Positions 29,009 to 42,255 of a stretch of 43,884 nt of DNA are shown here, in pieces. The first letter of the stretch is position 1. The number at the start of each line of letters is the position of its first letter. This DNA comes from Candidatus Kuenenia stuttgartensis. GTDB lineage: Bacteria > Pseudomonadota > Alphaproteobacteria > SMXS01. A model generated the notes under the pieces. It worked only from the letters and a program-made list of their open reading frames with translations. It was not told where the DNA came from and made no database searches. The stretch lies in the NCBI GenBank assembly GCA_943329845.2, contig CALQFM020000032.1, positions 1 to 43,884 on the forward strand. Direction: 5' to 3'. The translations under genes and the position numbers were made by a program.

Positions 29009-30313
29009 ATGAACTCCATCGGCGCATTGAACAGCGAGTCACGGGCGCCCGGCAAGCGGCGCGGGCCGCTGGCGGGAATCCGTGTGGCGGACTTCTGCTG
29101 GATGGGCGTCGGCTCCATGGCGACGCGCTTCCTCGCCGACTTCGGCGCCGAGGTGATCAAGATTGAAAACCGGTTGCGCCTCGACACGCCGCGACGGCTG
29201 CCGATCTACAAGGGCGTCGTCCGCGCCTATGGCCACGAGGACGCCAATCCCGACCCGAACAAGGGCGGCCTGCACAACAATTACAGCCGCAACAAGCTGG
29301 GTATCACCGTCAACATGAAGACGGCGAAGGGCCGTGAGATCATCGACCGGCTGATCGGCGCCTCCAGCATCGTCACCGAGAATTTCGCGCCGGGCGTCAT
29401 GGAACGCTGGGGCCTGACCTACGACAAGCTGCAGGCGCTGTCACCCAACGTGATCTTCGCCCGCATGAGCGGCTTCGGCCATTCCGGACCCTACGAGGAA
29501 TACCGTTCCTACGGCCCGGTGGTCCAGGCTGCCTGCGGCATGTCGTTCATCAGCGGCCTGCCCGGCCGCGAGCCGTCGGGCTGGGGCCTGTCCTACATGG
29601 ACAACCAGGCCGCCTACACCAACTCGTCGGCGCTGCTGATGGCGATCTACCAGCGCAACCGCACCGGCAAGGGCACCGAGATCGATGTGTCGGCGGTCGA
29701 GGCGGGCATCCACATGATGGGTCCGGTGATGCTCGACGTGTCGGTCAACGGCCGCGTCACCCGCGGCGATCAGTATCCGACCGGCAACCGGCTGGAGCAT
29801 CCGCACGCGGCACCGCACGGGGTCTATCCGTCGAAAGGCGAGGACCGCTGGGTCGCCATCGCGGTGTTCGACGATGCCGAATGGAAAGCGCTGGCCGGCG
29901 CCATGGGCAATCCGGCCTGGGCCGCGGACACGAAGTTCGCAACCCAGGACGCCCGCTTCGCCAACCAGGATGCGCTCGACGCCCACATCTCCGACTGGAC
30001 GCGCGGGCAGGACTGCCACGACGTGATGCACGCGCTTCAGATGCTGGGCGTGCCGGCCGGCGCGGTGCAGAACGCCCAGGACCTGAACGAAGTGGATCCG
30101 CAGATTGCCCATCGCGGCCTGTTCTTCGAGATGGACCACCCGGTGATCGGCGAGGCCCGCTTCGAGGGCGAGGCCATGAAGTTCTCGCGCACCGGCCCGG
30201 ATAACTGGCGCTCGGCCCCGCTCCTCGGCGAGGACAACCGCTACGTCTATCGCGACATTCTCGGCTACACGGACGCCGAGATCGACACGCTGGAAGCGGA
30301 GGGCGTGATCTGA
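29009..30313 (+). CDS. CaiB/BaiF family III CoA-transferase, catalytic-type subunit
   Basis: 434 residues. Family III CoA-transferases move CoA between carboxylic acids through an aspartyl-CoA anhydride. The Rossmann-like opening is PLAGIRVADFCWMGVG, then FLADFGAEVIKIEN; NYSRNKLGITVNMK and FGHSGPYEEY are family segments; the presumed catalytic Asp198 lies in GLSYMDNQAAY. The ATG at 29009 has AAGGGGAGCGG before it. It is the first gene of the long rightward operon. Its stop codon overlaps the next CoA-transferase start by one base (TGATG), suggesting a two-subunit enzyme like BbsEF of benzylsuccinate degradation. Confidence 0.93.
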   Translation: MNSIGALNSESRAPGKRRGPLAGIRVADFCWMGVGSMATRFLADFGAEVIKIENRLRLDTPRRLPIYKGVVRAYGHEDANPDPNKGGLHNNYSRNKLGITVNMKTAKGREIIDRLIGASSIVTENFAPGVMERWGLTYDKLQALSPNVIFARMSGFGHSGPYEEYRSYGPVVQAACGMSFISGLPGREPSGWGLSYMDNQAAYTNSSALLMAIYQRNRTGKGTEIDVSAVEAGIHMMGPVMLDVSVNGRVTRGDQYPTGNRLEHPHAAPHGVYPSKGEDRWVAIAVFDDAEWKALAGAMGNPAWAADTKFATQDARFANQDALDAHISDWTRGQDCHDVMHALQMLGVPAGAVQNAQDLNEVDPQIAHRGLFFEMDHPVIGEARFEGEAMKFSRTGPDNWRSAPLLGEDNRYVYRDILGYTDAEIDTLEAEGVI

Positions 30314-31527
30314 TGTCGAACCCCTTCGAACGTCCCTATGCCGACCTCAAGGTCATCGAACTGGCCGGCGATCCCGCCGGCGAGATGACGGGCTACCTGC
30401 TTTCCCAGATGGGCGCCGAGGTGATCAAGGTCGAGCCGCCGGAAGGCTCGCCGACCCGCGCCATCGGCCCATGGCTGCATGGCGAAACGGGACCCGACAG
30501 CAGCCTGACCTACTGGTATTACAACTCCAACAAGCGCAGCGCCGTGCTCGATTATCGGAGCGCTGCGGGGCTGAAGACGCTGGAGGCGCTGCTCGCGGAC
30601 GCCGACATCTTTATCTGCACCCTGCAGCCAAAGGCGTTGAAAGCGGCCGGCATCGACCATGCCGCGCTGAGCGCCCGGTTCCCCGACCTGATCATCGTTT
30701 CGGTCACCGCTTTCGGCCTGACAGGGCCGTGGGCCGACTACAAGTCGTCGGAGCTGGTCGCGCTCGCCGCCGGCGGGCCGCTGCACATGTGCGGCTATGA
30801 CGACCACGCCATCCCGCCGATCCTGCCGGGCGGCAACCAGGCCTCGCACATAGCCGCCAGCTTCGCGCACAAGGCGCTGCTGGTCGCGCTGATCGACCGG
30901 CAGATGACCGGCAAGGGCCAACTGGTCGACGTGGCCATGCACGAGGCCTGCGCCGTCACGGTGGAGCTGGCCAATCCGTACTGGTTCTATCCCAAGGCCA
31001 TCGTCCAGCGGCAGACCTGCCGCCACGCCCAGCCGGTGCGCACCCAGCCGGCGTTGTTCGAATCCGCCGACGGCAAGTACCTGTATTTCGTGCTGGTGGT
31101 CGCCGAGGCGAAGCCGTGGGCGAACCTGGTCGCGTGGATGGAAAGCCACGGCATGGCCGCCGACCTGACCGACGAGGCGTTCAAGGATTTCGCCTATCGG
31201 CAGGCCAACTACGCCCATGTGCAGGAAATGGTCGAGTGCTTCTTCCTGGTGAACGACGCCGAGACCATGTTCCACGAGGGCCAGGCGCGCGAGCTGCCGA
31301 TCGCCATCATCAACGCGCCGGAGGAGCTGTTCACCGACAGGCACAACATCGAGCGCAAGTTCTTCGTCGATGTGGCGCACGAGGGCGTCGGCACTTTCCC
31401 GTATCCGGGCGCGCCCTATTCCTTCTCGGCGTTTTCGCCGGTCGCGCGCCGCCGGGCGCCCAAGCTGGGCGAGCATACCGACGAGGTGCTGGGCGCGCTG
31501 GCGGCGCAGGCCGTCGCGGCGAAATAG
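30313..31527 (+). CDS. CaiB/BaiF CoA-transferase, partner subunit lacking the catalytic Asp
   Basis: 404 residues, same fold as its upstream neighbour (DLKVIELAGDPAGEMTGYLL, MGAEVIKVEPPEGSPTR, VSVTAFGLTGPWADYKS). In the segment where the catalytic Asp is expected (LPGGNQASHIAASFAHKAL, residues 171-189) there is none; Ser178 is at the aligned position when the downstream TGKG motifs are superposed. Heteromeric family III enzymes with one active and one degenerate subunit are known, so this is probably the structural partner of the preceding gene. Start codons overlap by one base. The alternative is an independent enzyme with a shifted active site. Confidence 0.9.
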   Translation: MSNPFERPYADLKVIELAGDPAGEMTGYLLSQMGAEVIKVEPPEGSPTRAIGPWLHGETGPDSSLTYWYYNSNKRSAVLDYRSAAGLKTLEALLADADIFICTLQPKALKAAGIDHAALSARFPDLIIVSVTAFGLTGPWADYKSSELVALAAGGPLHMCGYDDHAIPPILPGGNQASHIAASFAHKALLVALIDRQMTGKGQLVDVAMHEACAVTVELANPYWFYPKAIVQRQTCRHAQPVRTQPALFESADGKYLYFVLVVAEAKPWANLVAWMESHGMAADLTDEAFKDFAYRQANYAHVQEMVECFFLVNDAETMFHEGQARELPIAIINAPEELFTDRHNIERKFFVDVAHEGVGTFPYPGAPYSFSAFSPVARRRAPKLGEHTDEVLGALAAQAVAAK

Positions 31528-31537
31528 GGAGCGGACC

Positions 31538-32734
31538 ATGGACGAACTGGCCATCGCGGCGCGCGACAAATGCGCCATCGCCGGCATCGGCGTCACCGAG
31601 TTCATGAAGGATTCGCGCCGTTCGGTGCTGTCGCTGGCGACCGAGGCGTCGCTGGCCGCGCTGGAAGACGCAGGGCTCCGTCCCGAGGACGTGGACGGCA
31701 TCGTCCGCTGTCCCCACGACCAGATCACCCATAACGACCTGGCGTCGTCGCTCGGCATCCCGGACCTGACCTATTGGGGCGAGGTCGGCCCCGGCGGCGT
31801 TGGCCCCTGCGCCCAGGTCGGCCAGGCCATGGCGGCGATCATGGGCGGGCTGGCGACCACGGTGCTGGTGTTCCGATCGCTCAACGGCCGCTCCGAGGAC
31901 CGGTTTGGCCAGGGCGGGCACATGACCAAGAGCGCGCCGGTGGTCGGCGGCCGCGCCACCTATGACGAATACTTCCTGCCGTTCGGGCTGATGACCGCGG
32001 GCCAGACCTTCGCGCTGATGACCCAGTCGCATATGAACAAGTTCGGCACCACGTCCGAGCAGCTCGGCCATATCGCCATCGTCTGCCGGGAATACGCCAA
32101 CCACAACCCGCGCGCCCAGATGGGCGACCGTACGCTGACCATGGAAGACTATCTGTCGTCGCGGATGATCTCGTCGCCGCTCCGGCTGTTCGACTTCTGC
32201 CTGGAGACCGACGGCGCCGCCGCGGTGATCGTCACCACCACCGAGCGGGCGAAGAACCTGCGCCAGAAGCCGGTGCTGATCCGCGCCCAGGCCGGCGGCT
32301 GCCCGCCCGACATGCGCGGCGGCATGATGTTCCCCATCGTGATGCGCGACGACCCGACCGAGATCGGCGGCAAGAAGGCCGGCGAGACGCTCTACCGCAA
32401 GGCCGGCATCGGCCCAGACGAGATCGACGTGGCGCAGATCTACGACTGCTTCACCATCTCGATCCTGCTGCAGCTCGAGGCCTATGGCTTCTGCAAGAAG
32501 GGCGAGGGCGGCCCGTTCGCCGCCTCCGGCGCGCTGCGCCCGGGCGGCTCGCTGCCGATCAACACCGGCGGCGGCCACCTGTCCGAGGGCTACATCCACG
32601 GCATGGGCCATGTGGTCGAGGCGGCGCGCCAGATGCGCGGCGAGTCCAGCTACCAGATCGAGGGCGCCGAAACCTGCCTGGTCACCGGCGGCCCGCTGCC
32701 GACGGGCAGCGCCCTGATGCTGAGGAGGGCGTGA
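31538..32734 (+). CDS. Thiolase-like protein (SCP-x / lipid-transfer thiolase group)
   Basis: 398 residues in a thiolase fold: KCAIAGIGVTEFMKDSRRS, ALEDAGLRPEDVDGIV, GPCAQVGQAMAAI (Cys91 is a candidate nucleophile), DGAAAVIVTTTERAK, IDVAQIYDCFTISILLQLE and NTGGGHLSEGYIHGMGH. The usual His-Asp-Cys-Phe is Tyr-Asp-Cys-Phe here. Members of this group act either as 3-ketoacyl-CoA thiolases or, with a DUF35 partner, as retro-aldolases (Ltp2 in steroid side-chain loss). The next gene, overlapping by one base, encodes exactly such a DUF35 protein. The ATG at 31538 has AGGGAGCGGACC before it. It performs a chain-shortening step in this pathway (inference). Confidence 0.9.
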   Translation: MDELAIAARDKCAIAGIGVTEFMKDSRRSVLSLATEASLAALEDAGLRPEDVDGIVRCPHDQITHNDLASSLGIPDLTYWGEVGPGGVGPCAQVGQAMAAIMGGLATTVLVFRSLNGRSEDRFGQGGHMTKSAPVVGGRATYDEYFLPFGLMTAGQTFALMTQSHMNKFGTTSEQLGHIAIVCREYANHNPRAQMGDRTLTMEDYLSSRMISSPLRLFDFCLETDGAAAVIVTTTERAKNLRQKPVLIRAQAGGCPPDMRGGMMFPIVMRDDPTEIGGKKAGETLYRKAGIGPDEIDVAQIYDCFTISILLQLEAYGFCKKGEGGPFAASGALRPGGSLPINTGGGHLSEGYIHGMGHVVEAARQMRGESSYQIEGAETCLVTGGPLPTGSALMLRRA

Positions 32735-33141
32735 TGGCCGACCGGGTCCTGCCGCGCAAGGGCGACCGCGATACCGGCGCGTTCTTCGAGGCCGCGGACC
32801 GGCGCGAGCTGGTCTACAAGGCCTGCGACGACTGCGGCACCGTCATCAACCCGCCGCGCGCCAGATGCGCCAAATGCGGCGGCTGGAACACGTCCTGGAA
32901 GCAATCGGCGGGGAAGGCCCGGCTCAACACCTGGAGCGTGGTCCACCAGCAGGTCCATCCCCTGTTCCCGGCGCCCTACACCATCGTCGTGGTCGAGCTC
33001 GATGATGCGCCCGGCATCCGCTATGTGGGCTACATGGACGGCGCGCACGACCTGCATGAGGGTATGGCCATGCGGGTGCGGTTCGAGCCGACCGAGGATG
33101 GCGGCGCGCTGCCGCAATGGATGCCCGACAACGCCGAATAG
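32734..33141 (+). CDS. DUF35 zinc-ribbon / OB-fold protein
   Basis: 135 residues. An N-terminal rubredoxin-like zinc ribbon has CDDCG and CAKCGG (four cysteines within ~21 residues), followed by an OB-fold (LNTWSVVHQQVHPLF, YTIVVVELDD, GIRYVGYMDG). Such proteins bind acyl-CoA and pair with thiolase-like or Ltp2-type enzymes encoded next to them. The start ATG overlaps the stop of the thiolase-like gene (TGATG), which favours a stoichiometric complex. All four zinc ligands are intact. Confidence 0.93.
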   Translation: MADRVLPRKGDRDTGAFFEAADRRELVYKACDDCGTVINPPRARCAKCGGWNTSWKQSAGKARLNTWSVVHQQVHPLFPAPYTIVVVELDDAPGIRYVGYMDGAHDLHEGMAMRVRFEPTEDGGALPQWMPDNAE

Positions 33142-33153
33142 GGGAGGACGCCT

Positions 33154-34062
33154 ATGGGCACGCGCGTGAACTACAGCTTCACGGTCTACGACTATCCGGC
33201 GAACGAGGTCGTCCCCATGGCTGTCGCCGCCGAGCAGGCCGGCTTCGACGCCATCTGGATCGGCGAGCATTATGTGTGCCCGCGGGAGTTCACCAGCGAG
33301 CATCCCTCGACCGATGGCAAGAAGGGCGACCATCCGGCCAAGTGGATCGTCGGTCCCGATGCGCGGCTGCACGACCCGTGGTTCTTCATGGGCGCCATGG
33401 CCGGCGCGACGACGCGGCTGAAGGTGGGCACCGCCATCGTCCTCGCGCCGCTCAACCATCCGCTTTTACTGGCGCGGGCGACGCTGACGGCGCAGGAGAT
33501 TTCCGGCGGGCGGCTGCTGTTCGGCACCGGCGTCGGCTGGCTCAAGGAAGAGTTCGACGCGCTGCAGATCCCGTTCGAGAGCCGGGGTAGCCGCTATGAC
33601 GAAACCCTCGATATCCTGCGCCGGGCGTGGGCAGGCGGCTATTTCGCCCACGACGGCCGGCATTTCCAGTTCGACGCCATGCAGCTCACGCCGCACCCGG
33701 TGCATGTGCCACTGATCATCGGCGGCAATAGCGAGAAGGCGCTGCGGCGGGTGGCGGCCAAGGCCGACGGCTGGCTGAACTCGGCCAGGATCGCGCTGGC
33801 CGACGCGGTACGGCTGCGCGACCGGCTGGAGGCGCTGCGGGCCGAATACGGCACCGACAAACGGCCGTTCCAGTATTACGTGCGCCCCAACGAGACGAAC
33901 CGCTCCGAGATCGCGCGCTTCGTCGCCGAGGGCTTCGACAATATCGCCCTGTGGGGACCGGACGTATGGCCCAACCGCGATACCGGCACCATCAGGGAAA
34001 AGACCGAGCGCTTCCGCCGCAAGGCCGAGGAACTCGACATCGCGCCGCTCGAAGCGGTCTGA
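33154..34062 (+). CDS. LLM-class flavin-dependent oxidoreductase (2)
   Basis: 302 residues, luciferase-like TIM barrel: AEQAGFDAIWIGEHYVCPRE, RLKVGTAIVLAPLNHPLLLA, ISGGRLLFGTGVGWLKEEFD and PLIIGGNSEKALRRVAAKADGW are typical of TIGR03619-like F420-dependent enzymes. The first and last quoted segments carry the flavin-binding positions of the family. Strong site GGGGAGGACG before the ATG at 33154, 12 bp after the DUF35 gene. It could be a monooxygenase or dehydrogenase step of the pathway. It is only distantly similar to the LLM protein at 14971. Confidence 0.92.
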   Translation: MGTRVNYSFTVYDYPANEVVPMAVAAEQAGFDAIWIGEHYVCPREFTSEHPSTDGKKGDHPAKWIVGPDARLHDPWFFMGAMAGATTRLKVGTAIVLAPLNHPLLLARATLTAQEISGGRLLFGTGVGWLKEEFDALQIPFESRGSRYDETLDILRRAWAGGYFAHDGRHFQFDAMQLTPHPVHVPLIIGGNSEKALRRVAAKADGWLNSARIALADAVRLRDRLEALRAEYGTDKRPFQYYVRPNETNRSEIARFVAEGFDNIALWGPDVWPNRDTGTIREKTERFRRKAEELDIAPLEAV

Positions 34063-34074
34063 ACGGAGAATTCA

Positions 34075-34368
34075 ATGAAGCTGACACCGGGCCTCAGACT
34101 GAAGAGCGCCGTCTGCGACACCGAAGTGGTGATCGTGCGACCGCCGAAGGAGCCGGTGACGCTGGAATGCGGCGGTGCGCCCATGGGCGGCGAGGCGGGC
34201 GGCGCGGTGTCGTCCGACCACGCAGGCGGCACGCTGCTCGGCAAGCGCTACGAGCACGCGCCCGCCGGGCTCGAGGTGCTGTGCGTCAAGCCGGGCGCCG
34301 GTTCGCTGTCGGTGGGTGGCGTCGAGTTGACGCTCAAGGGAGCCAAGCAGCTTCCGTCTTCGGATTGA
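34075..34368 (+). CDS. Small conserved protein of unknown function (97 aa)
   Basis: I cannot name its family. It begins MKLTPGLRLKSAVCDTEVVI and contains CGGAPM and a Gly-rich centre (MGGEAGGAVSSDHAGG); the two Cys-Gly positions and short strands suggest a small beta-barrel. It has no signal peptide or membrane segment. It lies 12 bp after the LLM gene and 16 bp before a CoA ligase, in the same operon, so it probably assists one of these enzymes. Similar short proteins accompany acyl-CoA ligase genes in actinobacteria, from memory. GGAG precedes the ATG at 34075. Confidence 0.75.
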   Translation: MKLTPGLRLKSAVCDTEVVIVRPPKEPVTLECGGAPMGGEAGGAVSSDHAGGTLLGKRYEHAPAGLEVLCVKPGAGSLSVGGVELTLKGAKQLPSSD

Positions 34369-34384
34369 TCTGGGGACTAACACA

Positions 34385-35875
34385 GTGAATATCGCGCTGC
34401 TCCTCGAAATGGCGGCCCAGGGCGCGGAGGACCGTGTCGCCCTGCGCTGGGACGGCGGCAGCCTGACCTATGCGGCGCTGCAGGACCGCGCGCGGCGCGC
34501 GGCGACATGGGCACTGGCCCAGCCTGGCGACAAGGTGGTCTATCTGGGGCCGAACCATCCGGCCTTTCCCATCGCCCTGTTCGGCGCGGCAAACGCGGCC
34601 AAGCCGTTCGTGCCGGTCAATTACCGCCTGAAGGATGAGGATCTGCGCCGCATCCTGGCGCGCACCGCGCCGTCGGTGCTGGTCGCCGATGACGCCGAAA
34701 TGGCGCGCGTGCAGCGGATCGACGGCGTGACGCCGGTCGCGACCTCGGCGTTCATGGCCGCGCTCGATAACGCCGAGCCGCTGGAGGAAGCGGTCGAGGG
34801 CGAGGACGACATTGCCGTGCTGCTGTTCACCAGCGGCACCACGGGCGAACCGAAGGCGGCGATCCTGCGCCACCGCAACCTCAGCGGCTATGTGATCTCC
34901 ACCGTGGAGTTCATGGGCTCGGAAGCGGGCGAGACCAGTCTGGTCAGCGTGCCGCCCTATCACATCGCCGGCGTTTCGGCGGTACTGACCGCCGCCTATG
35001 GCGGCCGCGCCATCGCCCAGCTCCCAGCCTTCGACCCGGAGGATTGGATCGGTTTGGCCCGCAACGCCAAGGTCACCCATGCCATGGTGGTGCCGACGAT
35101 GCTGAAGCGCCTGAACCAGGTGCTGGAGGAGCAGGGCGGCGGGTTGCCGGATTTGCGGCTGATCTCCTATGGCGGCGGGCGTATGCCGCTGGCCGTCATC
35201 GAGAAGGCCATGGCGCTGCTGCCGCATGTGGATTTCGTCAACGCCTACGGGTTGACCGAAACAAGTTCGACGATCGCGATGCTGGGGCCGGACGATCACC
35301 GCGAGGCCTTCTCGAGCGGTGACAGTTTGGTCCGGCGTCGGCTGGAGTCCGTTGGAAGACCCCTGCCGACGCTGGAACTGGATATACGCGACGAAACCGG
35401 AAATCCCGTACCACAGGGGGAGCCGGGCGAAATCTGGGTCCGGGGTGAACAGGTTTCGGGCGAGTATGTCGGCAGGAGAACGCTACGTGACGACGGTTGG
35501 TTCCCCACAAATGATGCGGGCTGGATGGACCAAGACGGATTTTTGTACGTTCAGGGCCGATTGGACGACGTGATCGTACGCGGCGGCGAGAATATCGCCC
35601 CCGGTGAGATCGAGGACGTGCTACGCGCCCATCCCGCCGTCACCGACGCGGCTGTGTTCGGCGCACCCGACGAGGAATGGGGCGAGAAGATCGTCGCCGT
35701 GCTGGTGCCGCGCGGTACGCCCGACGTCGCCGGGCTGCAGGGCTGGGTGCGCGAGCGGCTGCGGTCCACCAAGGTACCGCAGGAGATTCGCTTCGCCGAT
35801 CAGCTGCCCTACAACGAGACGGGCAAGCTGCTGCGACGCCAGCTCAAGGCCGAATTCCTCGCGGCCTTGTCCTAG
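34385..35875 (+). CDS. AMP-dependent acyl-CoA synthetase/ligase (2)
   Basis: 496 residues of the ANL family: P-loop LLFTSGTTGEPKAAILRH, GLTETSSTIAML, hinge VQGRLDDVIVRGGENIAP and catalytic Lys in LPYNETGKLLRRQLK. The start is GTG at 34385 with GGGGAC upstream. It is shorter at the N terminus than most fatty-acyl ligases. The stretch 35230-35580 uses less GC-rich codons than the rest of the gene. Two different CoA ligases in one regulon suggest that either substrate and a later acid intermediate are both activated, or two related acids are used. Confidence 0.93.
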   Translation: MNIALLLEMAAQGAEDRVALRWDGGSLTYAALQDRARRAATWALAQPGDKVVYLGPNHPAFPIALFGAANAAKPFVPVNYRLKDEDLRRILARTAPSVLVADDAEMARVQRIDGVTPVATSAFMAALDNAEPLEEAVEGEDDIAVLLFTSGTTGEPKAAILRHRNLSGYVISTVEFMGSEAGETSLVSVPPYHIAGVSAVLTAAYGGRAIAQLPAFDPEDWIGLARNAKVTHAMVVPTMLKRLNQVLEEQGGGLPDLRLISYGGGRMPLAVIEKAMALLPHVDFVNAYGLTETSSTIAMLGPDDHREAFSSGDSLVRRRLESVGRPLPTLELDIRDETGNPVPQGEPGEIWVRGEQVSGEYVGRRTLRDDGWFPTNDAGWMDQDGFLYVQGRLDDVIVRGGENIAPGEIEDVLRAHPAVTDAAVFGAPDEEWGEKIVAVLVPRGTPDVAGLQGWVRERLRSTKVPQEIRFADQLPYNETGKLLRRQLKAEFLAALS

Positions 35876-35884
35876 GATTTTCCC

Positions 35885-36949
35885 ATGACGCCCACCGCCG
35901 GTCAGCGCGAGGACGGAAAGGACCAGGCCCTGGTCTCCCTCGCAGCCGATCCGGCCGCATCGGAAATCTTCTCGCCGGTAGGCGAAAGGCCGGTGACCAT
36001 CCTGGACCTGGATGATGTGACGGTCGGCGCGCTGCGGGCGGCCGGCGCGCCATCCCCCCGGTCGGGCGTGATGATCGGCATCGACCGGCGCGGCGCGGTG
36101 CCTGACGGGGTCGCCGGACTGTTCGACGTGCTGCTCACCACGGGCCAGGCCTGCGGCAGGGAATGGGTCTGCGTCGCGCCCGACGCGCTGGACGTCGAGG
36201 TCGATCGGCTGAACGAGCGGGCGGCCGCCACGCCGTTCGCGGCGTCCGTGTTCGCCCAGGTGCTGCGCATGGGTGCCAGCCTGTCCTTCGACGAAGGCTT
36301 GATCCTGGAATCCTTCGCCTATTCCACCCTGCTGGCGGGCGGCGAGTTCCGTGCCTGGCGCGCCGCCAACCCGGCCCGCCTCCGTGGCGATGAAGCGGAG
36401 CGACTCATCATCGTCGAGCGTGAGCGCGCCTTGCTGCGCATCAGCCTCAATCGACCCGCCGCGCACAATGGTCTCAACGCCCGTATGCGTGACCAGCTTG
36501 CCGAGGCGCTACGGGTCGCCGTCGCCGATCCCATGATCGGCCGCATCCTGCTGAAGGGCGAGGGACCGTCGTTCTGCAGCGGCGGCGACCTGGACGAATT
36601 CGGCAGCGCCACCGACCAGGCGCTCGCCCATGCGGTGCGTATCGCCCGCTCGGTCGCCTCGCTGGTCCACCGCTGCACCGACCGGGTCTCCGTGCGCCTC
36701 CACGGTGCGTGCCTGGGCGCGGGCATCGAAATACCGGCCGCCGCCGGCAGCATCACCGTTCACCGCGAAACGCGAATTGGGCTGCCTGAAGTGGGCATGG
36801 GCCTGATCCCGGGCGCCGGCGGCACCGTGACGGTGCGTCGCCGCATCGGTCGCCACCGCACCTGCTATCTGGGCCTGTCCGGCCGCCGCCTGACCGCCGG
36901 GGAGGCGCTGGCCTGGGGACTGGTCGACGGCCTGGAGGACATGGCGTGA
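35885..36949 (+). CDS. Enoyl-CoA hydratase/isomerase with an N-terminal extension
   Basis: 354 residues, about 100 more than usual. Residues ~176-354 form a crotonase core: ISLNRPAAHNGLNARMRDQL, oxyanion segment SFCSGGDLDEFG, HGACLGAGIEIPAAAGS with Glu282, and LPEVGMGLIPGAGGT with Glu302, so both catalytic glutamates are present. The first ~175 residues are not a standard crotonase N terminus; residues ~115-158 (FAQVLRMGASLSFDEGLILE, SFAYSTLLAGGEFRAWRA) resemble the C-terminal helices of crotonases, so the chain may be rearranged. AGGA precedes the ATG at 35885. The stop overlaps the GTG start of the next gene (GTGA). It hydrates or isomerises an enoyl-CoA in the pathway. Confidence 0.88.
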   Translation: MTPTAGQREDGKDQALVSLAADPAASEIFSPVGERPVTILDLDDVTVGALRAAGAPSPRSGVMIGIDRRGAVPDGVAGLFDVLLTTGQACGREWVCVAPDALDVEVDRLNERAAATPFAASVFAQVLRMGASLSFDEGLILESFAYSTLLAGGEFRAWRAANPARLRGDEAERLIIVERERALLRISLNRPAAHNGLNARMRDQLAEALRVAVADPMIGRILLKGEGPSFCSGGDLDEFGSATDQALAHAVRIARSVASLVHRCTDRVSVRLHGACLGAGIEIPAAAGSITVHRETRIGLPEVGMGLIPGAGGTVTVRRRIGRHRTCYLGLSGRRLTAGEALAWGLVDGLEDMA

Positions 36950-38082
36950 ACCGGCCGGTGTTCATGGATTTCGAACGGCGCTGGGCCATATCGGGACTGG
37001 AGGACTTGACCGGCCATGCGGGCGAGGCGGTGCTGCCGAAGCGGGATTTTCTGGCACGACTGGATGAATTGTCAGGACGCGTGGAGGAACTGGGCGAGCG
37101 GTTCGGCGTCGCCCTTGGCCTCGACCATTCGGTATTCATGGGCCGAGCCGCCATTCTGGGGCTGACCCGCCGCGGCCAGACCTCGTGCAACGGTACGTGC
37201 CGCCTGATCGAAAGCGGTGACGGTTGGCTGGCGGTTAATCTTGCCCGGCCCGAGGATGTGGACCTGGTGCCCGCGTGGCTCTGCCGGAAGGGGGACGATC
37301 CGTGGAAGGCCATTGGCAAAACGGCAAGGCGGTGCTCGACAGCCGATCTCATCGAGCGCGCGGCAATGTTGGGTATGCCTGTCGCAGCCATCCCCTTCAG
37401 CCGTCATCCTGGCGAAGGCCGGGATCCAGACTTGTCGAGTCAGACGCGTCGATTGTCCAGACTGGATCCCGGCCTTCGCCAGGATGACGGCTTGGAGGGG
37501 GGGCGAAGGCCTGTTGTCGTCGACCTGTCGTCGCTTTGGGCTGGCCCGTTGTGCGGCCACCTGCTGACCCGCATCGGCTGCCGGGTCATCAAGGTCGAAA
37601 GCACGACCCGCCCGGACGGTGCGCGGTTCGGGCCGGCCACTTTCTTCGAAGAACTTCACAACGGCCAGGAATTCGTCACCGTGGATTTCGCAACGCCAGA
37701 CCGGCTGCGCGACCTGATCCTCTCCGCCGACGTGGTGATCGAAGGCTCGCGCCCGCGCGCGCTGCGCCAGCTCGGCATCGACCGCGATGAGGTCATGAGC
37801 CAGCGGCCGTCGATGACCTGGGTCAGCATCACCGCCCATGGCCGCGACGACGCCCGCGTCGGCTTCGGCGACGATGCCGCCGCCGCCGCCGGCCTGCTGG
37901 CGTGGGACCGCGCAGGACGGCCGGTCTTCGTCGGCGACGCCATCGCCGATCCGATCGCGGGGCTGACCGCCGCCGAGGGCGCCATGGCGTCACTGCTGGA
38001 AGGCGGCGGCCATACCATCGACGTTTCGCTGAGCGGCGCGGCCGCCTGGGTGGCCGACGCCCCGGAGATCGCTTCATGGTGA
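36946..38082 (+). CDS. CaiB/BaiF CoA-transferase-like protein with an in-frame palindromic insertion
   Basis: 378 residues, GTG start at 36946 after GGAGGACATGGC. The order looks rearranged: an N-terminal part (CRLIESGDGWLAVNLARPED, LGMPVAA) resembles the C-terminal domain of ordinary CaiB proteins, and residues ~189-378 hold the Rossmann half (VVDLSSLWAGPLCG, RVIKVES, VDFATPDRLRDLI, WVSITAHGR) with probable catalytic Asp336 in DAIADPIAGL. Between them residues 152-182 are encoded by a perfect 90-bp palindromic repeat (37401-37490) that keeps the frame. Without it the two halves would be joined by a short linker, so the protein may still fold. It overlaps its neighbours on both sides (GTGA; ATGGTGA). 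Confidence 0.87.
   Translation: MNRPVFMDFERRWAISGLEDLTGHAGEAVLPKRDFLARLDELSGRVEELGERFGVALGLDHSVFMGRAAILGLTRRGQTSCNGTCRLIESGDGWLAVNLARPEDVDLVPAWLCRKGDDPWKAIGKTARRCSTADLIERAAMLGMPVAAIPFSRHPGEGRDPDLSSQTRRLSRLDPGLRQDDGLEGGRRPVVVDLSSLWAGPLCGHLLTRIGCRVIKVESTTRPDGARFGPATFFEELHNGQEFVTVDFATPDRLRDLILSADVVIEGSRPRALRQLGIDRDEVMSQRPSMTWVSITAHGRDDARVGFGDDAAAAAGLLAWDRAGRPVFVGDAIADPIAGLTAAEGAMASLLEGGGHTIDVSLSGAAAWVADAPEIASW
37401..37490. repeat. 90-bp palindromic repeat inserted in a coding sequence
   Basis: A 29-bp arm at 37401-37429 (begins CCGTCATCCTGGCGAAGGCC) is repeated exactly in inverse at 37462-37490, with a 32-bp centre. The arm resembles the dispersed GTCATCCTGGCGAAGGCCGGGATCC family of intergenic palindromes found in many alphaproteobacterial genomes. 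The total of 90 bp is 30 codons, so the host gene frame is preserved. No other copy is seen in this window. Confidence 0.93.
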
Positions 38083-39482
38083 TCATCGCCGACGCCGAGG
38101 TAGCCGGCCACAGGGTCGACGTTCGCATCGACGGCGGACGGATCACCGAAATCGGCCGCCGCCTGTGTGGTGCGCCCGTCGTCGGCGCGGCCGGCGGCGC
38201 GCTGATCCCGGGACTGCATGACCATCACCTGCACCTGCTGGCGCTGGCCGCGTCGATGACCTCGGTCGCCGTCTCGCCTGAAGCGGCCGGCAACGGCGCC
38301 GGTCTGCGCGCGGCGCTCAATGCGGCGTCCGGATCGTGGATACGCGCAACCGGCTATCACGACAGCGTTGCCGGACCGCTGGACCGCGATGTGCTCGACC
38401 GGCTGGAGCCGCGCCGGCCGGTGCGCGTCCAATATGCGACCGGTTCCCTGTGGGTGCTGAACTCCGCAGCGTTGCGGCTGGTATTGCCGCCAGGCGACCT
38501 GCCGCCTTGCGTCGAGCGTGATGCCGTTGGGGCGCCGACAGGCCGCATCTGGCGGGGCGACGACTGGCTGCGTGGACGCCTTCCGGCTGATCCGCCGGAC
38601 CTGGGCGCCGTCGGCGCGCTGCTCGCGCGGCATGGCGTGACCGGCGTCACCGACACCAGCGCGACCACCGGAACGGCGCAGGCCTCCCTGTTTGCGGCGG
38701 CGGTGCAATCCGGAAACCTGCCGCAGCGCCTGACGCTGATGAGCGGCGGACGGCTGACGGCGGCGCCCGAATACGCGGTCGGCTCGGTCAAGATCCTGCT
38801 CGACGACCATGATCTGCCCGACATCGACGACCTTGTCGGACGTATCCGGCAGGCGCGGGCATGGGGCAGGCCGGTCGCGGTTCATTGTGTCACCGCCGGA
38901 GAGTTGGCGATCATCCTGGCTGCGTTCGATGTGGAAGCTACACGGCCCGGCGACCGGATCGAGCATGGCGGTGTCATTCCGGTCGAAGCGATCCCGGAAC
39001 TGCGGCGTCTCGGCCTGACCGTCGTCACCCAGCCGGGCTTCATCGCCGAACGCGGCGACCGCTATGTTCGCGAGGTCGATCCGGTGGACCTGCCGGACCT
39101 CTACCGCTGCGCCAGCCTGATTCGGGCCGGCGTTGCCGTGGCGGGCAGTACCGACGCGCCTTACTCCGCGCCCGATCCGTGGTCTGCCGTCGCGGCCGCG
39201 ATCTCCCGGCGGACAAGGTCCGGCCGGACGATCGGTTGGGACGAGGCGTTGCCGCCGGAAGCCGCGCTCGACCTGTTTCTCGGTTCGGCGGAACATCCCG
39301 CCATACCACGCCGGATCGCCGTCGGCATGCCAGCCGACCTTTGCCTGCTGCGCCTGCCGCTGTGCGAGGCGCTGGCCGCGCCCCACGCGCACAACGTCGC
39401 TGCGACGCTGATCGGCGGACGCGCGGTCTACCAGGCCGAACCCCTCTTCGAACCGCAAGAAACCGCAGGAGTCCTGCCATGA
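38076..39482 (+). CDS. Amidohydrolase (YtcJ-like, metal-dependent)
   Basis: 468 residues of the amidohydrolase superfamily. An N-terminal small beta domain (IADAEVAGHRVDVRIDGGRI) is followed by the metal-binding GLHDHHLHLLAL (His51 and His53 as HxH), then VAVHCVTAGEL, DRIEHGGVIP and GSTDAPYSAPDPW, the usual histidine and aspartate ligands of a TIM-barrel hydrolase. The end of the chain returns to the beta domain (GMPADLCLLRLPL, IGGRAVYQ). The ATG at 38076 overlaps the stop of the CoA-transferase gene (ATGGTGA). The substrate is unknown; amide, ester or ring hydrolysis are options. It is followed by an SDR with ATGA overlap. Confidence 0.88.
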   Translation: MVIIADAEVAGHRVDVRIDGGRITEIGRRLCGAPVVGAAGGALIPGLHDHHLHLLALAASMTSVAVSPEAAGNGAGLRAALNAASGSWIRATGYHDSVAGPLDRDVLDRLEPRRPVRVQYATGSLWVLNSAALRLVLPPGDLPPCVERDAVGAPTGRIWRGDDWLRGRLPADPPDLGAVGALLARHGVTGVTDTSATTGTAQASLFAAAVQSGNLPQRLTLMSGGRLTAAPEYAVGSVKILLDDHDLPDIDDLVGRIRQARAWGRPVAVHCVTAGELAIILAAFDVEATRPGDRIEHGGVIPVEAIPELRRLGLTVVTQPGFIAERGDRYVREVDPVDLPDLYRCASLIRAGVAVAGSTDAPYSAPDPWSAVAAAISRRTRSGRTIGWDEALPPEAALDLFLGSAEHPAIPRRIAVGMPADLCLLRLPLCEALAAPHAHNVAATLIGGRAVYQAEPLFEPQETAGVLP

Positions 39483-40291
39483 GTTCCTTTCCCGGCTTCC
39501 CGACGCACGAGAAACTTTTCCGGCTGGACGGGCGCACCGCCTTCGTCAGCGGCGCCGCCGGGCATCTCGGGCGGCCCATGGCGCTGGCGCTTGCCCAGGC
39601 CGGCGCCCATGTGATTCTCAACGGCCGCACCGAATCCAGGCTGGAGGAGTTGCGCGGCGAGATGGCGGCGGCCGGCCTGTCGGCATCCGTCTCGGCCTTC
39701 GACGTCATGGACCGGGAGGCGTTCGGCGCGTTCTTCGTCGGCCTGAAGCGCCTGGATGTGCTGGTCAACAACGCCTTCACAGGCCTGCCGCGCAAGAACG
39801 ATCCCGATCCCAGCGCCGCGTTCCGTACCGGCCTGGACAGCGGCATCACCGTCGCCTACGAGCACACCATGGCGGCGCTTCCCGCGTTGGAAACGGCTGT
39901 CGCGGCGGTCGGGCATGCGTCGGTGATCAACATCACCTCGATCTACGGCCACGTTGCGCCGACGTTCTCGATCTATCCGAACCCGGCCATGCGCGCGGCG
40001 CCCTATTACAGCGCGGCCAAGGGCGGCCTGCTGCAGCTCACCCGCTACATGGCCTGCGACCTGGCGGCGAAGCGCATCCGGGTGAATTCGCTCAGCCCCG
40101 GCATTTTCCCGTGGGACAACATCCTCACCGAGTTCCCGGAGTTCGTCGCCCGCGCCGCCGAGGCGACGCCCATGGGCCGTACGGGCCTGGCCCAGGAGAT
40201 CGGCGGCCCGGCGGTGTTTCTTGCCTCGGACGCGGCGTCCTACATGACCGGCGCGGATTTGCGCATCGACGGCGGCTGGGTGGCGCGATAA
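39479..40291 (+). CDS. SDR-family oxidoreductase, last gene of the long operon
   Basis: 270 residues. The cofactor motif is VSGAAGHLGRPM (SGxxGxLG instead of TGxxxGIG), NNAF replaces the usual NNAG, ITSIYG holds the catalytic Ser, YYSAAKGGLLQL the Tyr-x3-Lys, and TGADLRIDGGWVAR the C terminus. All catalytic residues are therefore present despite the altered glycine motifs. NGRTESR after the second strand suggests NADP(H). The start ATG overlaps the preceding stop codon (ATGA), so it is translationally coupled to the amidohydrolase. It ends the block of overlapping genes that begins at 29009; regulon site 4 follows 9 bp after its stop. Confidence 0.92.
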   Translation: MSSFPGFPTHEKLFRLDGRTAFVSGAAGHLGRPMALALAQAGAHVILNGRTESRLEELRGEMAAAGLSASVSAFDVMDREAFGAFFVGLKRLDVLVNNAFTGLPRKNDPDPSAAFRTGLDSGITVAYEHTMAALPALETAVAAVGHASVINITSIYGHVAPTFSIYPNPAMRAAPYYSAAKGGLLQLTRYMACDLAAKRIRVNSLSPGIFPWDNILTEFPEFVARAAEATPMGRTGLAQEIGGPAVFLASDAASYMTGADLRIDGGWVAR

Positions 40292-40299
40292 CCAGCGTA

Positions 40300-40343
40300 A
40301 TCATCATCATGAACTTGACCGAACGCAGGACGTGCGCTCTAGT
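40300..40343 (+). promoter_or_regulatory. Promoter with palindromic operator upstream (regulon site 4)
   Basis: TTGACC (40315-40320) and TCTAGT (40338-40343) are spaced by 17 bp. The motif ATCATCATCATGAA (40300-40313) ends one base before the -35. It would drive the SnoaL-like gene and the genes after it. Confidence 0.5.
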
Positions 40344-40358
40344 TTGCAACAGGCGTCA

Positions 40359-40379
40359 GGTGGACGGGGAAGGTCCACC
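40359..40379 (+). other. Leader hairpin before the SnoaL-like gene
   Basis: GGTGGAC (40359-40365) and GTCCACC (40373-40379) form a perfect 7-bp stem with loop GGGGAAG, 15-35 nt after the predicted -10 and 23 bp before the start codon. The loop resembles a ribosome-binding sequence, and the true one (ACGGGGAATAACG) follows. Confidence 0.35.
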
Positions 40380-40402
40380 GGCCACGATAACGGGGAATAA
40401 CG

Positions 40403-40930
40403 ATGGACGTTGAACAGCAACTCGCCGGCCTGCTCGCGCGCGAGGAAATCCGTGAACTGGTGACCTCGAAGTTCTCCTCGGCCGTCGACTGGCTCGACCA
40501 TGCGGCTATGACCGCATGCTATACCGACGATGCCACTGTCGCGTTCGGCACCTTCTCCATGAGCGCCAGGGATTTCGTCGACTTCTGGTGCAAGATGGGC
40601 GCGACCTTCCGCACCCGCTACCACCTCATCACCTGCGCCAGCATCGCCGTCGACGGCGACCGGGCGCGGACCGAGGCGCGCGGCATCGTGGTCGGCGTCG
40701 CGCCCGACGCCAACAATGACGGCAAGCTGCGGGACGCCATCGAGGGCTCGCGCTACTACTGCGACCTGGTGCGCCAGACCTACACCTGGAAGATCGCGAA
40801 GATGCAGATTGTGTTCGACTGGTCGCTGCTCCAGCCGTCGCCTGCCGCCACGGCAGCCGGAGCGCCGTTCGAGGAAGGCATGACCACCGATCACTGGCTC
40901 TACAAGCACATGAAGACCGGGTCGGCCTGA
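40403..40930 (+). CDS. SnoaL-like (nuclear transport factor 2 fold) protein
   Basis: 175 residues. The NTF2-like cone is indicated by LLAREEIRELVTSKFSSAVD, HAAMTACYTDDATVAFG, YHLITCASIAVDGDRARTEA and YTWKIAKMQIVFDWSLLQ. The family includes polyketide cyclases, ketosteroid-isomerase-like enzymes, dehydratases and small subunits of Rieske dioxygenases; without a clear catalytic dyad I cannot choose. A Rieske alpha subunit lies 2.2 kb downstream, and this protein could in principle be its beta subunit, though it is not adjacent. Start ATG at 40403 after GGGGAATAACG. Confidence 0.85.
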   Translation: MDVEQQLAGLLAREEIRELVTSKFSSAVDWLDHAAMTACYTDDATVAFGTFSMSARDFVDFWCKMGATFRTRYHLITCASIAVDGDRARTEARGIVVGVAPDANNDGKLRDAIEGSRYYCDLVRQTYTWKIAKMQIVFDWSLLQPSPAATAAGAPFEEGMTTDHWLYKHMKTGSA

Positions 40931-40931
40931 C

Positions 40932-41009
40932 ATGGGCGCCCTCGACGGCAAGGTCGCCTTCATCACCGGCGTCGCGCTACCGGTCGATGGCGGCTACCTG
41001 GCCGCCTAG
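40932..41009 (+). pseudogene. SDR gene collapsed to 25 codons by an in-frame deletion
   Basis: The frame starts like a classical SDR (MGALDGKVAFITG) and continues directly into the typical SDR C terminus (VALPVDGGYLAA) before TAG. About 230-250 central residues, including the catalytic Ser-Tyr-Lys, are missing. The junction is ATCACCGGC (40962-40970), coding Ile-Thr-Gly, a tripeptide normally present at both places in SDRs (N-terminal ITGAxxGIG and C-terminal ITGVxLPVDGG), so recombination between these short repeats explains the loss. The stop codon overlaps the ribosome site of the P450 gene (TAGGAG), so translating the stub may still help P450 expression. Confidence 0.85.
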
Positions 41010-41019
41010 GAGAACGGGC

Positions 41020-42255
<1,236 letters not shown>

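Follow-up and report, generated by a model that had tools for sequence, protein, structure and literature searches.

The window, i.e., the whole stretch of DNA that was analyzed (43,884 nucleotides), contains at 36946-38082 a gene for a class III CoA-transferase-like protein, in the middle of which lies a 94-bp inverted repeat. The surrounding cluster (29009-42255) encodes two ordinary CoA-transferases, a thiolase-like protein, a luciferase-like monooxygenase, an AMP ligase, an enoyl-CoA hydratase, an amidohydrolase, a short-chain dehydrogenase, and a P450, and is likely an acyl-CoA catabolic cluster. The features of the gene and of the repeat are as follows:

36946..38082, + strand: class III CoA-transferase-like gene, 378 aa; its GTG start overlaps the stop of the upstream gene
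36946..37398, + strand: N-terminal half, residues 1-151; residues 1-146 are 60% identical to L052, the orthologue in the congeneric genome G002
37399..37492, no strand: 94-bp inverted REP dimer, encoding residues 152-182 and the first base of codon 183
37402..37428, + strand: left REP unit with a CGTC tag, an 8-bp stem ATCCTGGC/GCCGGGAT (one T-G pair), a 4-nt loop GAAG, and a CCA tail, by comparison of the sequence with the excerpts of PMC3733652
37433..37458, no strand: spacer of 26 nt between the arms; 4 of 26 positions unlike the nearest sibling
37463..37489, - strand: right REP unit, inverted; the tags of both units lie at the outer ends
37493..38082, + strand: C-terminal half, corresponding in fold to the N-terminal part of class III CoA-transferases

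The repeat is composed of two 34-nt arms (37399-37432 and 37459-37492) that lie 26 nt apart and are 97% complementary, the lone mismatch being at arm position 32, so that the outer 31 nt are exact. The original prediction, a perfect palindrome of 90 bp at 37401-37490 with 29-bp arms, was thus right about the palindrome and slightly short in its extent. Chance is ruled out for the arm pattern, since it was matched twice in the window (up to three mismatches) and not at all in 100 dinucleotide shuffles. As RNA, positions 37380-37510 are predicted to fold with -99.5 kcal/mol (z = -12.2), a stability reached by none of 200 shuffles. Within the gene, the element fills codons 152 to 182 and the opening base of codon 183, its length not being divisible by three. 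The ORF is open throughout, element included, without a stop, which agrees with the predicted in-frame reading inside a CoA-transferase gene.

With regard to the encoded protein, the Pfam family CoA_transf_3 was matched by residues 191-371 (E = 1.4e-31), only over profile positions 6-204 of 366. The protein is therefore not a canonical class III enzyme with a full-length CoA_transf_3 domain in the canonical order, since another half precedes the matched one. The assignment of the C half (residues 183-375) is also seen in structure: residues 183-373 of the predicted model were superimposed by VIA-align on residues 7-216 of YfdE (Z 18.1, rmsd 2.6, 187 aligned). For the N-terminal half, the best 45 Foldseek matches of a low-confidence model (pLDDT 62.6) were all class III CoA-transferases, weak ones (E 0.019 to 1.6), and no PDB match fell under E 0.001. 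No CoA-transferase was found by phmmer with this half, and its hhalign comparison with paralogues was weak (E 0.071). In the homologue L083, the N half matches CoA_transf_3 profile positions 137-185 (whole-protein E 6.5e-7), while the four other scanned members gave no such match in their N half. It appears that the domain order is changed in this protein and in L081-L089, with an N half resembling the middle-to-C-terminal part of class III enzymes, a C half resembling their N-terminal part, and the element at the junction, although the N-half evidence is weak in the focal protein itself. It was also observed that a C-terminal tail some 50 residues long is absent here (focal end 38040-38082) and from L088 and L089, and present in L052, L082, L086, and L087.

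A near-full-length orthologue was found in two of the ten genomes of the order, namely the own genome (G000) and G002. The G002 orthologue is 59-62% identical and syntenic, the neighboring genes aligning in the same order, and its protein is identical to L081, a named record from Alphaproteobacteria bacterium isolate RI_34. A contig profile scan with the single focal protein returned no loci and an alignment-based scan returned five, of which L085 (26% identity) was left out; the distant homologues used were L082, L083, and L084 from the latter scan and L086, L087, L088, and L089 from a class-wide search, in which 4 of 385 genomes, own genome included, matched at E 1e-40. The original prediction had named the presence of the same stretch in all orthologues as the mark of ordinary coding sequence; the 94 bp are absent from all eight distinct homologues (L052 = L081, L082-L084, and L086-L089), and so from the congeneric orthologue, which is without the focal hairpin.

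The element lies, as had been proposed, between two protein halves, which are 60% (N half) and 69% (C half) identical to L052, as compared with 19% for the linker. However, the claim that it adds 30 codons is not borne out. The junction, counted between the conserved LG and VDLSS motifs, has a length of 48 residues in the focal protein as against 42 in L052 (and in L081, its identical copy); with 33-41 residues for the remaining seven homologues, the excess over the eight amounts to only 6-15 residues. When the 31 element residues are subtracted, 17 remain, fewer than in any homologue (33-42); the element thus added no simple 30 residues, and native linker was lost. Judging from these alignments, the loss must have occurred, by deletion or replacement, before, during, or after insertion. 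In an AlphaFold model from a 5-sequence alignment (mean pLDDT 66), residues 154-185 have a pLDDT under 50 (about 28 for 161-180) and sit between predicted strands at 146-150 and 190-193. The 31 encoded residues are thus predicted to form an unstructured part of a poorly conserved junction.

The linker of the congeneric orthologue was considered as well. Over 38-48 nt, its DNA is 79-82% identical to a different repeat, of which several copies in G003, G000, and G002 were matched (best E 5.3e-5), and L052:2081-2119 (-) resembles a degenerate copy of that other family, CCCCTC...GGGGAGAGGG.CAGGGTGAGGG. A profile built from copies found via this linker scored it at 20.8 bits, which is circular, and a profile from five copies in independently fetched loci gave a weak 13.6 bits (E 0.043 in 0.8 Mb), as compared with 12.3 bits for the best match unlike a family member. 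None of 2000 dinucleotide shuffles reached either score. In a random-window control, made useless by true homologues in the database, 152 of 597 windows equaled or exceeded the linker's score. No other match to the linker's core pattern was found in G002 with up to three mismatches. Taken together, these comparisons are only suggestive of a second repeat family in the linker of the G002 orthologue.

In the own genome, a search for the REP unit gave 49 matches with the focal arm as the query and 65 when the commonest form was used (both with up to three mismatches), the reversed pattern giving none. After merging, these matches correspond to about 39 places, 36 of which are inverted pairs; the copy count and mapping that had been suggested as a check thus reveal a multicopy family of dimers. 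All 38 places other than the focal one lie outside called CDSs, in line with the expectation of a palindrome otherwise confined to intergenic DNA of Alphaproteobacteria. Among the 35 places with genes called on both sides, 11 have convergent, 23 unidirectional, and one divergent neighbors. In the relatives, 41 distinct places from the fetched loci were counted, and none overlaps a called gene. Two long members (171-172 bp), at C11:25698 (L045) and C40:18695 (L041), have a further palindrome inside the spacer, made up of CCCTGAGCTTGTCGAAGGG and its complement.

The gene calls were made by a home-made codon-model caller trained on about 0.3 Mb, which missed the focal gene's N half (start put at 37549), so that the intergenic status of the other 38 places also rests on a spanning-frame test. 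At seven places, an open frame extends beyond the element by 150 nt or more in both directions, and the focal place is the only one of them with homology to one gene on both flanks. Its flanking coding scores in the focal frame are -5.9 on the left, over 613 nt of which a part precedes the start codon, and +4.8 on the right; none of the other six has a better pair. Scores at these six are negative on both sides, down to -30, with the exception of C16:40714 (-28.2 / +11.0), and the mildest negative pair is one frame of C15:61672 (-9.3 / -6.9).

It has been reported that CGTC-tagged REPs occur mostly in Alphaproteobacteria (Di Nocera, De Gregorio, Rocco 2013, PMC3733652). In the available excerpts of that paper, a CGTC-1 REP has an unpaired CGTC (or TGTC/CCTC) tag, an 8-bp stem opening with complementary A and T, a 4-nt loop, and a CCA tail, and CGTC REPs are described as mostly head-to-head dimers, mostly intergenic, and without a dedicated transposase. 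Some are intragenic, and over half of these are dimers or groups coding for 20-30 residues (PMC3733652). In the focal element, the tag is found at 37402-37405 and mirrored at 37486-37489, and the stem (one T-G pair), loop, and tail are all of the CGTC-1 form. The 39 places with 36 dimers, the 38 of 38 others outside CDSs, mostly between convergent or unidirectional genes, and the lack of Y1_Tnp matches in the own genome agree with that description as well. In the relatives, no REP unit (up to six mismatches) was found within about 1.5 kb on either side of seven Y1_Tnp loci. By its sequence, which agrees in every feature compared, the element is a member of the CGTC-1 REP family.

The nearest match to the focal element is C59:14547-14640 of the own genome, 91% identical over 94 bp, gapless and in the opposite orientation, followed by G003:C14:80452-80545 (89%). 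These two copies represent a single intergenic locus that is conserved between the own species and a sister species, G003 (3.1 kb aligned at 88%). The gapless 94-bp match to this sibling locus indicates that the gene carries a copy of an intergenic element in its full length, with the spacer. Out of 94 positions, 8 separate the focal copy from C59 and 10 separate it from G003, the two siblings differing at 7, and one arm-matched difference, at positions 12 and 83, distinguishes the focal copy from both siblings. The exact arms had been taken as a sign of recent insertion or selection, a view that was dropped because identical 25-nt arm units are common, being shared within 13 of the 36 dimers of G000, and because 8 of 94 bases differ from the nearest known sibling. 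Judging from these few copies, the source may be unsampled, and the age of the focal insertion is not firm.

Ten orthologous element pairs were compiled from the 36 G000 dimers and 31 dimers in loci fetched from G003 (28 loci) and G006 (12 loci, part of its matches listed). The seven intergenic pairs of equal length show one paired change and seven single-arm changes, and the three of unequal length show two paired, nine single, and two other changes. Strict co-evolution of the arms as a rule was thus abandoned, as single-arm changes outnumber paired ones. Arms differ less within a dimer than between dimers (mean 1.92 vs 2.75 differences, 0 of 5000 permutations), a likeness that can be explained if dimers descend as whole units. 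At three orthologous intergenic places, dimer lengths differ between G000 and G003 (C15:61672, 67 vs 172; C17:41321, 103 vs 84; C65:14461, 67 vs 102), as if spacers had been swapped or elements replaced in place.

On this evidence, the locus is very probably best explained by a non-autonomous REP dimer of the CGTC-1 type that was inserted into a CoA-transferase-like gene where its two halves meet and was retained since this junction tolerates almost any in-frame sequence. The insertion event would be reconstructed from sequence comparison, the sole congeneric orthologue being 59-62% identical. The element would have been moved or copied from an intergenic site by some trans-acting enzyme and would have landed in a junction that accepts nearly any in-frame sequence. 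It can be read through because four of its six reading frames are open, and at least one frame is open across the element at 38 of the 39 family places. If the protein is made, as is presumed, the translation product SRHPGEGRDPDLSSQTRRLSRLDPGLRQDDG would serve as a disordered linker that replaces most of the native one, probably with a near-neutral effect. The points that speak against this explanation are the 17-residue remainder, the length of 94 not being a multiple of three, the coding signal, weak just upstream and negative over the element, the caller's start at 37549, and the missing C-terminal tail.

The last three of these, the tail being present in L052, L082, L086, and L087, would fit a dying gene, effectively split by the element and yielding no full-length protein or an inactive one. 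Ahead of the element, frame 0 is the best frame in each of three stretches and scores +2.4, +0.3, and -3.8 per 100 nt, the last being 37251-37398, just upstream; the element scores -15.3 and the next 56 nt -10.1, so that coding signal is weak over 37251-37548 and negative over the element, and the N half was skipped by the automatic caller. On the other hand, the ORF is open throughout, the tail is also absent from two other homologues, and the dN/dS (NG86) against L052 is 0.28 for the N half (dN 0.38, dS 1.37) and 0.35 for the C half (dN 0.25, dS 0.72), though this is one pairwise comparison over a long branch and is compatible with recent decay. Some decay is thus possible in view of the tail and the coding signal, and a dying gene is considered unlikely. 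A hairpin kept for regulation, by slowing ribosomes, by being cut in the mRNA, or by lowering the expression of the downstream half and later cluster genes, draws on the folding energy and on the arm-matched difference from both siblings. Yet hairpins of a comparable kind are the rule among intergenic family members, the congeneric orthologue lacks the focal one, and the one paired against seven single-arm changes in the equal-length pairs indicates that pairing is not strictly maintained, which leaves this role improbable.

Two further readings were rejected. That the palindrome arose by chance in ordinary coding sequence accords with its being open and in frame, but hardly any probability can be given to it, as intergenic copies match the full 94 bp almost identically and the homologues lack it. 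An assembly chimera at the repeat might be suspected in a draft genome of which the window is one of 107 contigs; it is nevertheless very improbable, because both flanks belong to one orthologous gene of G002, as its two halves in the right order, and none of the other matches listed shows the CCTGG arm variant of the focal copy.

If an insertion of the CGTC-1 dimer is accepted, the locus provides, outside Rickettsia, a clear case of intergenic repeat DNA becoming protein sequence, and two species share an intergenic sibling at one conserved site. The locus also illustrates that such an insertion need not lengthen a protein much, since the element can replace the old linker. A broader, rather unlikely proposal is that the junction is renewed by palindromic repeats, the CGTC-1 dimer here and an unrelated family (CCCCTC...AGGGTGAGGG) partly behind the linker of the sole congeneric orthologue, so that interdomain linkers would be recurrent sinks in which lineage repeats are turned into protein. 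If the second repeat holds, it would offer a concrete test of linkers as recurrent landing sites. Flexible linkers have been suggested to tolerate REP insertions, and the recB genes of two Xanthomonas species, which carry different REPs at about the same site, are the one parallel reported for such sites in the available text of PMC3733652.

Among known systems, that of the CGTC-1 REPs as excerpted in PMC3733652 is closest to the focal element, which shares their tag, stem, loop, tail, head-to-head homodimer, mainly convergent or unidirectional sites, and lack of a dedicated transposase, as well as the occasional in-frame intragenic dimers coding for 20-30 residues. It differs in genus and host gene, a CoA-transferase-like one, and in filling an interdomain junction where it largely replaces the native linker. 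With regard to REPINs and RAYTs, an inverted REP pair is likewise the unit (excerpts of PMC3116915), whereas the REPs there are GTAG-tagged (PMC3733652). A RAYT gene flanked by the same repeat was not found here, and a RAYT-driven REPIN was rejected since the own 107-contig assembly, in which a gene could have been missed, gave no Y1_Tnp match. The comparison with Rickettsia palindromic elements made in the original prediction proved apt, as RPE-4 (CGTC-4) and RPE-6 (CGTC-1) of R. conorii have been placed in the CGTC superfamily (PMC3733652, in part). As in the sections available of PMC2229807 and PMC10969869, a palindromic repeat lies in frame within a conserved protein gene, and a guanylate kinase of Rickettsia that contains an RPE is reported to be both translated and active (Delihas 2007, PMC2229807). 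In contrast, RPEs occur in many genes and measure 105-146 bp (PMC2229807), while the focal family is in a gene at one of 39 places and its element there measures 94 bp. The focal case is therefore a clean new example of a phenomenon already described in related bacteria.
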